DNA of 5,452 bases, taken from the NCBI GenBank assembly GCA_025924495.1, contig JAICIG010000494.1:1-5452 (forward strand). Reading direction: 5' to 3'. The notes beneath the pieces were generated by a model. The model was not told the DNA's origin and did not search any database. It saw nothing but the letters and a program-made list of their open reading frames with translations. Origin of the DNA: Pirellulales bacterium. Lineage in GTDB: Bacteria; Planctomycetota; Planctomycetia; Pirellulales; JAICIG01. The translations under genes and the position numbers were made by a program. Below, piece after piece: positions 1,097-5,452 of this stretch. Every line of letters starts with the position of its first letter. Position 1 is the first letter of the stretch.

Positions 1097-1999
1097 TCAG
1101 GGAACGAAGATCTCGATCGCCGCAGGCTCGACCTGAATTTCGATCGGGGCAAAACCCGCCGCTTCGCCGTCGATCTCGAGCGGAACAGGCTGCGGGCAGG
1201 CAAGCTGAATATGCTTCGCCCGGCCAAAGAATACGTCGGTACAACTGCGATGTCGCCCGCGCCAGACTTTCAATGCATAGCGCATCAGCGGGACGCTGCC
1301 GGGCCGAGCGAAGACCAGCCAGTCGAGCAATCCGTCGTCGGGCAATGCGTCGGGCGCTAACGGCAAATCGTTGGCGTACTGCGGCAGATTGAAGACCATC
1401 GCCAAGGCGCCGCAGACCCGCAGACCATCGGCTTCGACCTCGATCAGCGGATATTTATATCGCAGCGCTGCGACCGCGATCGGGCGCAAGTAATTCAAGC
1501 TGCGGACTCGTTTCAATCGGTCGGAAGTCGCCCGCCAGGTCGCCAGGCGGTGCGCTGCATCGCCATCGAACCCTGCGCTGGCCACGATACTGAACCGCTG
1601 ATCGCCGGCGCGGCCAAGATCGATCGGCCTAGTCCGTCCGGCGGCGATCATACGGGCCATCGACAAGGGCTCGGCACTATATCCGAATTGGCGCGCGAAC
1701 AGGTTTTCGTTGCCCAAGGGATACATCGCCAGTGGAACGGGAATCTGCCGATTAATCAGGCAATTGAGGGTTCCGTCCCCCCCCGCCGCTACAACGGCGC
1801 GATAGTGCTGGGCGAAGTCGGGTTCGGCCGCGGCTTCCGACAATTCATCGAGCGACCAGGCAAGTCGCACCTCCAACCCCAGGCTTTGCATTGCCATCGA
1901 CAAGGCCCGAATGCGGGCCAGATTGTCTTTGGCGCCGCTATAGGGGTTGCCCAAGATGGTTACGCCGCGCGGCCGGTCGCCCGAAAGACTGCTCGTCAT
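1097..1999 (-). CDS. Diacylglycerol kinase family lipid kinase (YegS/DAGK-catalytic type)
   Basis: This 300-residue protein has the expected family length and motif order: a nucleotide-loop motif NPYSG (residues 18-22), GGDGTLN (73-79), PLGNEN (94-99) in place of the usual PLGTxN, SAGFDG (141-146), PDDGLLD (220-226) and EIDGE (275-279). Members phosphorylate a lipid hydroxyl such as diacylglycerol or a long-chain alcohol, using ATP, at the inner face of the membrane. The substrate cannot be told from sequence. There is no membrane segment, as is normal for the family. The ATG at 1999 is the first start in frame, since an in-frame stop lies three codons upstream. Its ribosome site is weak (GGAAATGA). 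A minus-strand frame from 2295 ends with an ATGA overlap at this start, but that frame does not look like a protein. The gene is divergent from the nagB fusion. Thr to Asn at residue 97 is the only motif departure I see. Confidence 0.92.
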   Translation of the reverse strand: MTSSLSGDRPRGVTILGNPYSGAKDNLARIRALSMAMQSLGLEVRLAWSLDELSEAAAEPDFAQHYRAVVAAGGDGTLNCLINRQIPVPLAMYPLGNENLFARQFGYSAEPLSMARMIAAGRTRPIDLGRAGDQRFSIVASAGFDGDAAHRLATWRATSDRLKRVRSLNYLRPIAVAALRYKYPLIEVEADGLRVCGALAMVFNLPQYANDLPLAPDALPDDGLLDWLVFARPGSVPLMRYALKVWRGRHRSCTDVFFGRAKHIQLACPQPVPLEIDGEAAGFAPIEIQVEPAAIEIFVP

Positions 2000-2371: not shown

Positions 2372-2412
2372 CCCAGGCGCCCGGCTGGATGGGGCGTATT
2401 CTGGCGCCTGGG
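2372..2412. repeat. Perfect 10-bp inverted repeat
   Basis: CCCAGGCGCC (2372-2381) is complementary to GGCGCCTGGG (2403-2412) across a 21-nt loop. A G-T wobble at 2371/2413 could extend it. It is immediately followed by a second small hairpin, GTTCG-TGAG-CGAAC (2415-2428). Confidence 0.6.
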
Positions 2413-2414
2413 TC

Positions 2415-2428
2415 GTTCGTGAGCGAAC
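2415..2428. repeat. Small tetraloop hairpin GTTCG-TGAG-CGAAC
   Basis: A 5-bp perfect stem with a 4-nt loop, starting 2 nt after the 10-bp inverted repeat. It is weak alone but in line with the neighbouring structures. Confidence 0.3.
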
Positions 2429-2561
2429 TAAAGCGAGCCGTGCGATTGCCTCCACGGGTAGAATCCTCTAGGCGAGCACATTTCTTTCAAGCGAGCGATT
2501 CGAAGACCATTGCCTGGCACTCGCCGCGTCCTGCGATGGGATTTTGCTTAAGACAAGCGTC

Positions 2562-2612
2562 ATCGGTGAGCCGAGACTGCGCATGTATGGGTCCGGCAGT
2601 CTCGGCGCCGAT
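2562..2612. repeat. Strong hairpin, 11 + 5 bp, with internal loop
   Basis: GCCGAGACTGC (2570-2580) pairs perfectly with GCAGTCTCGGC (2596-2606) across a 15-nt loop. Beyond an internal loop (TGA against G), ATCGG (2562-2566) pairs with CCGAT (2608-2612), giving 16 pairs in all. The 3' arm can instead pair downstream (see 2601-2619). Confidence 0.65.
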
Positions 2613-2619
2613 TGCCGAG
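2601..2619. repeat. Alternative hairpin competing with 2562-2612
   Basis: CTCGGC (2601-2606), part of the 3' arm of the larger hairpin, is also perfectly complementary to GCCGAG (2614-2619) across a 7-nt loop. GCCGAG occurs at both 2570-2575 and 2614-2619, so one arm has two exclusive partners, as in attenuators and switches. Confidence 0.45.
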
Positions 2620-2642
2620 CGGTCGGGGTCAATGTCAGCCGA

Positions 2643-2667
2643 CGCCCACGTCCTCCAACCGTGGGCG
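2643..2667. repeat. Perfect 8-bp hairpin CGCCCACG/CGTGGGCG
   Basis: Arms at 2643-2650 and 2660-2667, loop of 9 nt. The 3' arm shares 3 nt with a segment (2665-2671) that can pair with the 5' arm of the hairpin at 2700-2736. Confidence 0.5.
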
Positions 2668-2699
2668 ACCCCGGCCCCCGGCGATCGTTATCGGCTGCC

Positions 2700-2736
2700 C
2701 GGCAGGGTCGCGACCAGGGGCGACGCGACCCTGCCG
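2700..2736 (+). terminator. Perfect 13-bp GC-rich hairpin, possible terminator or attenuator
   Basis: CGGCAGGGTCGCG (2700-2712) pairs perfectly with CGCGACCCTGCCG (2724-2736) across an 11-nt loop. On the plus strand the stretch CTCTTTTCTCT follows after a few bases (from about 2742). The stem is ideal for an intrinsic terminator, but the T-run is interrupted and 5 or more nt from the stem. No protein gene ends upstream, so if it is a terminator it would end a non-coding transcript or a leader. Confidence 0.45.
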
Positions 2737-2857
2737 AGGCGGCTCTTTTCTCTGCCGTGGTCTACAGAGCATGAAAATCTTCCATGCCGCTACCCGTGGG
2801 AATTCAGGCGTAGAACATCAGCGATAGCATTTGCCGCCGGATTGAGGCATACTAACG

Positions 2858-2920: not shown

Positions 2921-4819
2921 ATGCGAACCACCGCTATCGTTACTGCCGCGCCCGCGGCGCGCCGCATTCCTGGAACAGAAATTCCCAGCTACGTCTTCGA
3001 CTCGAACCGCGACCTGGCCCGGCATGTCGCCGAATCGATCGCCAGCGTCATCCGCGAGCGTAACGCCTTTGGACAGAACGCCGTCTTGGGCCTGCCGACC
3101 GGCTCGACGCCGATGGGCGTTTATCGCGAGCTGATCCGGCTGCACCGCGAGGAAGGGCTCGATTTCTCGGGCGTGGTCACGTTCAACCTCGACGAATACT
3201 ACGGTCTGCAACCTAACCAGTTGCAAAGCTACCACCGCTGGATGTTCGAGCACTTCTTCGATCATGTGAACATCCCTCGCGATCAAATCCACATTCCCGA
3301 CGGCACGATCGCGCTCGATGATTTGGAAGACTACTGTCGCCGCTATGAAGCCGATATCGAGCGGGCCGGCGGCATCGATGTGATGCTGTTAGGCATCGGC
3401 CGCAATGGACACATCGGCTTCAATGAACCGTTCAGCATGCGTCATAGCCGCACGCGCTTGGCCACGCTCGATCCGGTGACGCGGCGCGACGCAGCCAGCG
3501 ATTTCTTCAGTGAGGAGAACGTACCGCAGCAAGCGATCACGATGGGGTTGGCGACGATCTTTGACGCGCGGAAGATCTTCTTGATCGCGCTTGGCGAACA
3601 CAAGGCGCCTATTATCAAAGAGGCGGTCGAAGGCCCTGCGAGCGATCGCGTGCCAGCCAGCTTTCTGCGAGATCATCCGGCCGCCGCCGTCTTGCTCGAT
3701 GAAGCGGCGGCCGGCAAGCTGACCGGCGTGGTAACGCCCTGGGTGTTGGGCAACGTGGAATGGACCGACGCCCTGATCAAGCGGGCCATCCTCTGGCTCT
3801 GCGATAAGACGGGCAAAGCGTTGCTCAAGCTCGACGACCAGGACCTGCGCGAGCATAACTTGCATCAGTTGCTTCGCCATCATGGGCCCGCTCAACAGGT
3901 CGCCCATCGCGTGTTCCGCTGGATGATGGACACCATCGAATATCACCCGGGCGGCCGCGAACCGAAGCGAGTGATTTGCTTCAGCCCGCATCCGGACGAC
4001 GACGTGATCAGCATGGGCGGCACGCTCATCCGGCTGGTTGAAGACCAGCACGAAGTGCACGTCGCCTACATGACCAGCGGCAACATCGCCGTATTCGATC
4101 ATGACGCACAGCGCGTGGCCGATCTGGTCGTCGAATTCAATCGGCTGTTCGGCATCGATCAGGACAAGTCGCTGGAAGTCGAACGACAAGTGTTGCAATC
4201 GCTGTCCAAGAAAGGGCCGGGCGAGCCCGACAGTCAGACCGTGTTGGCGATCAAAGCTTTGATTCGCTGGAGCGAGGCCAAAGCGGGCGCCATTGTCTGC
4301 GGCTGCCGCGAAGAACACCTGCACTTTCTCGACTTGCCGTTCTATCGCACCGGAACGATTGCCAAGAACCCGGTCAGCGACGAAGACGTGCGGATCATTC
4401 GCGAATTGATCGAGCGCGTCGATCCGCAGCAAGTGTACGTCGCCGGCGACTTGTCCGATCCGCACGGCACGCACCGCGTGTGCGCCGAGGCGATTTTCCG
4501 TGCCTTGAAGCAACTTGAGGCCGCCAACGGCAAACGCCCTGAAGCGCTGCTCTATCGTGGCGCCTGGCAGGAATGGGCGCCACATGAAATCGAAATTGCG
4601 GTGCCTCTAAGCCCGAAGGATTTGGATCGCAAGCGCACGGCGATCTTCATGCACGAATCGCAGAAGGACACGGCGCTATTTCCAGGCTCCGACTCGCGCG
4701 AGTTCTGGCAGCGCGCCGAAGACCGTAACCGCCACACGGCCGACACCTACAACCGCTTGGGGCTGCCCGAGTATTTCGCCATGGAGGGCTTCGTCCGCTG
4801 GAACGGCGAGCCCATCTGA
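2921..4819 (+). CDS. nagB: Glucosamine-6-phosphate deaminase fused to PIG-L family deacetylase
   Basis: The 632-residue product has two domains. Residues about 25-290 are NagB: LPTGSTP (59-65) for phosphate binding, FNLDEY with Asp91 as the base, and GRNGHIGFNEP (160-170) with His164 and Glu169 of the catalytic relay; Asn162 stands where E. coli NagB has Asp141. This domain turns glucosamine-6-phosphate into fructose-6-phosphate and ammonia. Residues about 348-600 are a PIG-L (LmbE-like) zinc deacetylase: SPHPDDD (355-361) and DPHGTH (513-518) hold the likely metal ligands His357, Asp360 and His518. This domain should remove N-acetyl groups from a GlcNAc-type compound. The two together suggest coupled deacetylation and deamination in amino-sugar breakdown, in the cytoplasm since no signal peptide is seen. 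Long NagB proteins of this form occur in planctomycetes and Bacteroidetes. The ATG at 2921 lacks a Shine-Dalgarno sequence, but it is the only start before the conserved 'IPGTEIPSYVFDSN' region. The deacetylase substrate is not known from sequence. Confidence 0.95.
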   Translation: MRTTAIVTAAPAARRIPGTEIPSYVFDSNRDLARHVAESIASVIRERNAFGQNAVLGLPTGSTPMGVYRELIRLHREEGLDFSGVVTFNLDEYYGLQPNQLQSYHRWMFEHFFDHVNIPRDQIHIPDGTIALDDLEDYCRRYEADIERAGGIDVMLLGIGRNGHIGFNEPFSMRHSRTRLATLDPVTRRDAASDFFSEENVPQQAITMGLATIFDARKIFLIALGEHKAPIIKEAVEGPASDRVPASFLRDHPAAAVLLDEAAAGKLTGVVTPWVLGNVEWTDALIKRAILWLCDKTGKALLKLDDQDLREHNLHQLLRHHGPAQQVAHRVFRWMMDTIEYHPGGREPKRVICFSPHPDDDVISMGGTLIRLVEDQHEVHVAYMTSGNIAVFDHDAQRVADLVVEFNRLFGIDQDKSLEVERQVLQSLSKKGPGEPDSQTVLAIKALIRWSEAKAGAIVCGCREEHLHFLDLPFYRTGTIAKNPVSDEDVRIIRELIERVDPQQVYVAGDLSDPHGTHRVCAEAIFRALKQLEAANGKRPEALLYRGAWQEWAPHEIEIAVPLSPKDLDRKRTAIFMHESQKDTALFPGSDSREFWQRAEDRNRHTADTYNRLGLPEYFAMEGFVRWNGEPI

Positions 4820-4871: not shown

Positions 4872-5452
4872 ATGCGGAATGCCGAAAGGCGAGGTCGGAA
4901 GTCGGAAACCGGAAGTCGGAAATCTCAGCAGCCGGCAGGAGTTCCCTCCGCCACGACCTCCGACGTCCGACCTCCGACTTCTTCTTTGATTGAGGGTCGG
5001 AGGCACAAACAGATCCTTGCGCTCTTATTGTTCGCCACGTTGGCGCTCGCTGCCGGTTCCGCGGCGCAAAAGTCGGTGACGGTGGATGAATTCCAAGGCC
5101 TGCCGCTGGGCCTGGCGACGCTCAAGACGGGCGACTTTCATTTGGGCGTCACCAACCCGATCTTGCCCAGCATTTTGGCGGCGCTGCCACTGTTGGCGAC
5201 CTCCGCAGAATTCGACGCGACGAGCATGGCCGGTTACACGAGTTCCTGGCAATGCGGCGGGCAGTTCTTGCGCGAAAACGCGCTCTCGCCCGCAGCGCAG
5301 CCGGAAAACCCCGGACGTTATCACGATTACTTTCTGCTCGGCCGGCTTGTCTCACTTGCCGTGCTGCTCACGACGTGCGGTTTGACTTACGGTTTTGCAC
5401 GCAGTCTCTACGGGCCGCTCGCCGGACTGCTAGCAGCCGGCTTTGCCTGCCT
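4872..5452 (+). CDS. GT39/ArnT-like membrane glycosyltransferase, N-terminal part
   Basis: The frame stays open to the window edge (193 full codons). Residues 1-47 form a polar Arg/Ser/Thr/Pro-rich tail. Residues about 48-65 are the first membrane helix (ILALLLFATLALAAG), preceded by basic GRRHKQ, which puts the N-terminus in the cytoplasm. The loop after it has VDEF (Asp72, Glu73), at the place of the conserved acidic pair of GT-C enzymes, and TGDFHLGVTNP (86-96), matching the family pattern of TGDF followed by NP. A hydrophobic stretch 'LPSILAALPLL' follows, and a second helix begins near the end, before 'ARSLYGPLAGLLAAG'. Family members move a sugar from a polyprenyl-phosphate donor to protein or lipid on the outer side of the membrane. 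The acceptor is unknown. Seven or more helices would be expected in the missing part. The N-terminal tail is unusually long and is largely built from the repeats at 4893-4978. Confidence 0.8.
   Translation, partial: MRNAERRGRKSETGSRKSQQPAGVPSATTSDVRPPTSSLIEGRRHKQILALLLFATLALAAGSAAQKSVTVDEFQGLPLGLATLKTGDFHLGVTNPILPSILAALPLLATSAEFDATSMAGYTSSWQCGGQFLRENALSPAAQPENPGRYHDYFLLGRLVSLAVLLTTCGLTYGFARSLYGPLAGLLAAGFAC
4893..4978. repeat. Heptanucleotide repeat tract in two opposing blocks
   Basis: The left block has four 7-nt units in a row (GGTCGGA, AGTCGGA, AACCGGA, AGTCGGA; 4893-4920). The right block has TCCGAC at 4959, 4966 and 4973, exactly 7 nt apart and in the opposite orientation. One more GGTCGGA lies at 4995-5001. 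The blocks could fold into an imperfect long hairpin with a loop of about 35 nt. If the ATG at 4872 is used, the tract encodes residues about 8-36 of the glycosyltransferase. Confidence 0.75.

Follow-up and report, generated by a model that had tools for sequence, protein, structure and literature searches.

The DNA analyzed here (the window, 5,452 nucleotides in all) carries a lipid kinase gene and a divergently oriented gene for a NagB-PIG-L fusion protein, separated by a spacer of ~920 bp (Table 1). A sequence-only reading had described the segment 2372-2736 within this spacer as a series of perfect inverted repeats, and the arms are present as claimed: 10 bp (2372-2381/2403-2412), 11 bp (2570-2580/2596-2606), 8 bp (2643-2650/2660-2667) and 13 bp (2700-2712/2724-2736), with an extra pair of 10 bp and 90% identity at 2621-2630/2667-2676. 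That such arms are not expected by chance was also confirmed. When arm pairs with loops of 3-25 were counted in 2000 dinucleotide shuffles of the segment, none of the shuffles contained at least three pairs of at least 10 bp, none reached four pairs of at least 8 bp, and the mean number of pairs of at least 10 bp was 0.014. In the whole window one further pair of at least 10 bp was found, at 3677-3714 inside nagB. RNA folding of 2300-2760 gave z scores of -4.2 on the + strand and -3.3 on the - strand (100 shuffles each).

Table 1. Features of the window around the candidate RNA (G018 and G035 are the two related genomes described in the text)
Feature	Position	Strand	Remarks
Diacylglycerol kinase-like lipid kinase (DAGK_cat + YegS_C)	1097-1999	-	Divergent neighbour, also in G018
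10-bp inverted repeat, 21-nt loop	2372-2412	.	33 nt upstream of the promoter-like site
Promoter-like site TTGCCT-N7-TAGAAT	2446-2464	+	Both relatives have TTGCCC-N7-TACAAT before the RNA
Predicted small RNA transcript	2471 to ~2750-2753	+	Promoter-like site, conserved core, terminator-like hairpin; ends predicted
Conserved core, matched by covariance model R1	2569-2678	+	Window is one of the three model sequences
Hairpin 1, 11-bp stem	2570-2606	+	Invariant loop word UGGGUCC at 2588-2594; compensatory changes in relatives
Hairpin 2, three stems	2609-2687	+	Loop UCCUCCAAC at 2651-2659
Hairpin 2, outer stem	2609-2617/2679-2687	+
Hairpin 2, middle stem	2621-2630/2667-2676	+
Hairpin 2, inner stem	2644-2650/2660-2666	+
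Terminator-like hairpin	2694-2753	+	Arms 2694-2712/2724-2743, one bulged A, then UCUUUUCUCU
NagB-PIG-L fusion gene	2921-4819	+	Neighbour of the RNA in the window, not in G018 or G035

A two-hairpin core in three genomes

Positions 2200-2920 were searched against the DNA of 396 genomes, all from the order to which the nearest nagB relative belongs. Window positions 2614-2678 were matched in G035 (87% over 63 nt, E 9.5e-15) and in G018 (86% over 66 nt, E 7.6e-14), and these were the two genomes with E < 1e-5 among the matches listed. Matches at E <= 0.1 occurred in 123 of the 396 genomes, nearly all of them short, and the third best had an E of 2.7e-4. The rest of the spacer (2000-2920) gave nothing significant against the surroundings of the RNA in G018 and G035 (next best E 0.27), and nine genomes of nagB relatives searched with the spacer returned weak matches only (best E 0.0175). 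Family searches returned just G018 and G035. Because the nagB orthologues of these two genomes share 83% (G018) and 85% (G035) identity with that of the window, compared with 69-79% in the family of another genome, G001 (7 genomes), the window's organism is probably a third member of the G018/G035 family.

Hairpin 1 lies outside the block matched in the DNA search, yet it was found just upstream of that block in both relatives, as in the window, and the loop word UGGGUCC is common to all three. When the relatives' upstream regions were shuffled 2000 times each, this word turned up in 22 and 26 of the shuffles; UGGGUCC followed within 30-90 nt by CCUCCAAC occurred only at the three RNA loci in 1.19 Mb searched on both strands. 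The stem is formed by GCCGAGACUGC/GCAGUCUCGGC in the window, by UCCGGACCGC/GCGGUUCCGGA with one bulge in G035, and by CCGGAGCCG/CGGCUUUGG in G018. In a MAFFT alignment of the three sequences, 93.3% of the cells of hairpin 1 pair and 4 of its 10 pairs show two-sided changes, a number that rises to 6 once the G035 bulge is placed by hand. The observed two-sided changes were matched in 16 of 500 shuffles, the covariation score in 9 and the further pair types in 139; set against these shuffles, the evidence for compensation is moderate, and it rests on one stem because only three sequences could be compared. The covariance check proposed by the sequence-only reading gave this moderate support for hairpin 1, and the hairpins at 2372-2412 and 2694-2743 had no counterparts around the RNA in either relative to compare.

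Hairpin 2 is almost invariant: all 17 pairs of its two inner stems never vary in the three sequences, and its loop reads UCCUCCAAC in the window and CCCUCCAAC in G035. Its outer stem differs, being made of CCCGCC/GGCGGG in G035 and of about three pairs in G018. When pairing partners were slid, pairing over the whole structure fell from 97.5% to 27-49%, a contrast biased in favor of the structure because these sequences had helped to define it. In each of the three RNAs, the computed folding leaves UGGGUCC and the hairpin 2 loop unpaired, except that two G residues of UGGGUCC are partly paired. A loop-loop contact between UGGG and UCCA, both of them invariant words, is possible. The G-U pairs of hairpins 1 and 2 on the + strand would be A-C mismatches on the opposite strand, and the + strand is therefore favored. 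Folding of the core on this strand gave z scores of -6.4 in the window, -2.6 in G035 and -1.7 in G018; in G035 and G018, the - strand of the core had a slightly lower energy than the + strand and a similar z. Taken together, the core is very probably a real conserved structured RNA.

We built a covariance model, R1, from the window, G018 and G035 sequences. It detected one strong copy each in G018 (8.5 Mb; 112.9 bits) and G035 (6.9 Mb; 110.4 bits), scores that are high by construction since both sequences are in the model. Across three overlapping draws of 396, 397 and 396 genomes, with 9 candidates scored per genome, strong matches were confined to G018 and G035; because of this number of candidates, distant relatives may have been missed. 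Genomes with any match numbered 14, 7 and 3 in the respective draws, with E values no higher than 1, 0.2 and 0.1, and G035 itself had a second match of 24 bits (E 0.44). Such weak matches (20-28 bits) look like chance and were rejected as homologues: at the 18 loci checked over 300 bases each, which for one locus (L135) miss the match, CCUCCAAC was found at none and UGGGUCC at one.

The neighbors of the RNA differ among the three genomes. In G018, the kinase gene (C121:46800-47681), whose product is 59% identical to that of the window, adjoins the RNA (C121:47935-48044). In G035, the RNA is on C303, flanked by a gene with an STN domain and a gene with Sel1 repeats, and the kinase gene is on C35, where it appears to adjoin a recA-like gene. 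DAGK homologues were present in 9 of 10 genomes, with the RNA alongside in G018. The nagB orthologues are located on C296 in G018 and C123 in G035, in each case a different contig from the RNA. A conserved RNA with varying neighbors is expected of trans-acting intergenic sRNAs, and the combination of conserved sequence and varying neighborhood seen in these three genomes therefore follows the pattern of a trans-acting RNA.

Ends of the predicted transcript

The promoter-like site could be aligned in all three genomes. This alignment is not significant alone, 10 of 60 shuffled triples having equaled or beaten the three-way match, and a sigma-70 consensus scan of 2000-2950 reported no promoter. 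Genome-wide, the motif has 3 sites in G018 and 3 in G035, and the reversed control has 0 in each. Among the sites away from the RNA, one precedes a tRNA-like gene by 9 nt (L152), two precede an ATG by 32 and 33 nt, with 478 and 303 codons open from that ATG, respectively (L156 and L155), and the fourth falls inside a 467-codon frame (L153). Because of the positions of these other sites, we regard the motif as a likely promoter. A perfect 10-nt inverted pair, CCACGGGTAG/CTACCCGTGG (2452-2461/2790-2799; 328 nt apart), overlaps the promoter-like site and, by a rough estimate, could be due to chance.

The tRNA-like gene, on the same contig of G018 as the RNA (C121; L152:1529-1640), is of class II and has a 28-nt hairpin insertion in its anticodon loop, which is unusual for a bacterium. 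ARAGORN called it tRNA-Cys(gca) with a 28-nt intron when introns were allowed, and missed it in the default scan. It could be a real tRNA with an insertion, a pseudogene or a tRNA-derived RNA.

At the other end of the predicted transcript, the U-rich tail UCUUUUCUCU directly follows the stem 2694-2743. The sequence-only reading had placed this last stem at 2700-2736; the stem is indeed there, but it is longer, extending to 2694-2743 with a bulged A. A simple terminator scan reported no site; the scan allows loops of 3-8, and the loop of the perfect arms is 11 here. In G035, hairpin 2 ends with GGCGGGCUUUU, which is terminator-like, and G018 has no clear terminator, so that a terminator-like end is present in two of the three genomes.

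The four hairpins of the segment had been attributed to a single structured RNA. All of them exist, but they probably do not form one unit, because 2372-2412 lies upstream of the likely promoter; it is outside the predicted transcript and its role is unexplained. When 2340-2470 was compared by blastn with the regions around the RNA, L139 in G018 and L140 in G035, a single match resulted, at chance level (E 0.41), and neither 2372-2412 nor 2694-2743 has a counterpart around the RNA in these genomes.

A candidate trans-acting RNA and its alternatives

The first explanation offered by the sequence-only reading, an sRNA terminating at the 2700-2736 hairpin, gains support from the homologues in two genomes and from the compensation in hairpin 1, and further from the near-invariance of hairpin 2 and from the last stem running into UCUUUUCUCU. 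We give a probability of about 0.6 to the reading that 2471-2753 on the + strand is a free-standing gene for a trans-acting RNA. It is most likely free-standing, and not a leader, because the relatives keep the RNA elsewhere, in neither case beside nagB. The gene would consist of its own promoter-like site, the two-hairpin conserved core and the terminator-like hairpin, and it would encode a small, structured non-coding RNA that belongs to one planctomycete family and acts in trans. The likely contact sites would be the invariant loops, UGGGUCC in hairpin 1 and UCCUCCAAC in hairpin 2. The CCUCC of the latter is complementary to the Shine-Dalgarno sequence GGAGG, a match of five bases; we tentatively propose that it may pair with this sequence in target mRNAs and thereby block their translation. 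A global role as a lineage-specific housekeeping RNA, either a Shine-Dalgarno-binding repressor of many mRNAs or an RNA-protein particle replacing 6S RNA, is decidedly unlikely.

The position of the RNA in the window, upstream of nagB and on the same strand, is what would be expected of a long 5' leader or riboswitch controlling nagB-PIG-L in cis from the untranslated start of its mRNA, as the sequence-only reading had also suggested. The relatives do not bear this out: in both, the RNA is away from nagB, with the orthologues (83% and 85% identical) on separate contigs, and it is located mid-contig in G018 (47.9 kb of 90 kb) and followed by 2.5 kb of other sequence in G035. Moreover, a terminator-like hairpin stands between the RNA and nagB, and the spacer had no significant match in the best 80 of 588 nagB-relative loci (best E 0.67 with blastn, 0.16 with nhmmer), making a leader highly improbable. 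A small protein gene that includes the conserved block is hardly credible. Over the core, the window and G035 are free of stops in every + frame, but G018 has a stop in one frame, the indels between the three genomes are not multiples of three, and in the hairpin 1 part the translations cannot be aligned with one another. The 172-aa frame at 2347-2865 had no Pfam match and no relative but itself among 5.8 billion proteins, which agrees, as far as tested, with the earlier view that no protein frame here is convincing.

Perfect inverted repeats, and a - strand that folds about equally well, would also suit a DNA element such as a palindromic repeat, a mobile-element end or a protein-binding DNA site. 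We consider this very unlikely, given the single strong copy in each of G018 and G035 and the G-U pairs on one strand, which together with the invariant unpaired loops suit an RNA better. A REP-like dispersed palindrome, which would have many copies per genome, was rejected on the same copy number; a plasmid origin was rejected on plasmid matches that were short and at chance level only (6 records, E 0.2-0.6), and a viral copy on the hairpin 2 pattern, which had 0 matches in viral contigs. More serious, though still rather unlikely, is a structured RNA acting through protein binding, as a sponge, a scaffold or a polymerase regulator, with hairpin 2 as the binding site. The 17 of 17 conserved pairs of the hairpin 2 stem go beyond the needs of a base-pairing loop; pairing of the loop does not by itself account for this near-invariance, and a protein ligand could be involved. 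A lineage-specific substitute for 6S RNA is conceivable, as RF00013 had no match in G018 and G035, but this absence says little because RF00013 also had no match in 9 of 14 control genomes. No known protein-binding motif was recognized in the RNA, and its one-sided bulge and short loop are unlike the shape of 6S RNA, a single long hairpin with a central bubble.

Comparison with known RNAs

The window had no match at gathering score in Rfam 15, and neither did the RNA loci of the two relatives (L104 and L105), so that a known Rfam family was rejected for all three. Several other inverted repeats were seen. Between nagB and the next gene of the window, 4891-4980 is a long palindromic stretch in which GTCGGA-type words face their reverse complements, and its microRNA matches are far below the Rfam cut-off. 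Below-cut-off microRNA matches also occur in G018 near the lipid kinase gene and a TIM-barrel gene (L105:209-286 and L105:2622-2698), both probably strong inverted repeats. Upstream of nagB in another planctomycete (L003, where the nagB match starts at 1719), 1491-1571 is a long imperfect inverted repeat, GGGTGCCACTGCTGG.../...CCAGCAGTGGCACCC, which looks like a small mobile palindromic element.

Like 6S RNA (RF00013), the candidate is a structured bacterial RNA of similar size; unlike it, the candidate is not a single long hairpin with a central bubble, and the window, L104 and L105 had no RF00013 match. Catalogues contain few non-coding RNAs from this region of the bacterial tree: 8 sRNAs are given for the whole PVC group vs 345 for Proteobacteria in a survey from 2022 (PMC9029176). 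The exact loop words, the covariance model and the promoter-like site give a concrete search target, making the RNA a candidate to look for in planctomycete transcriptomes.

In a published account of the NfeR1/alpha-r14 sRNAs of alphaproteobacteria, anti-SD loops silence mRNA by pairing at the ribosome-binding site (PMC10746234). The candidate resembles these RNAs, as described there, in having several hairpins, a loop whose C-rich word complements the Shine-Dalgarno sequence, and stems that vary while loop words stay. However, NfeR1 has CCUCCUCCC in three hairpins (PMC10746234), whereas here UCCUCCAAC is in one hairpin and UGGGUCC in another; the hairpin 2 stem of the candidate is also conserved, the host phylum is another, and there is no Rfam match. 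Membership in alpha-r14/NfeR1 was rejected, as the candidate lacks the identical, unpaired CCUCCUCCC that three hairpins carry there. The Rhodopirellula-1 motif is a candidate RNA listed for Planctomycetes and Proteobacteria and is apparently listed as cis-regulatory, which the RNA described here apparently is not (PMC2864571). No described RNA of the same anatomy was found in the open-licence literature, as represented by such extracts. The RNA is a new candidate family of a familiar kind, the intergenic bacterial sRNA.
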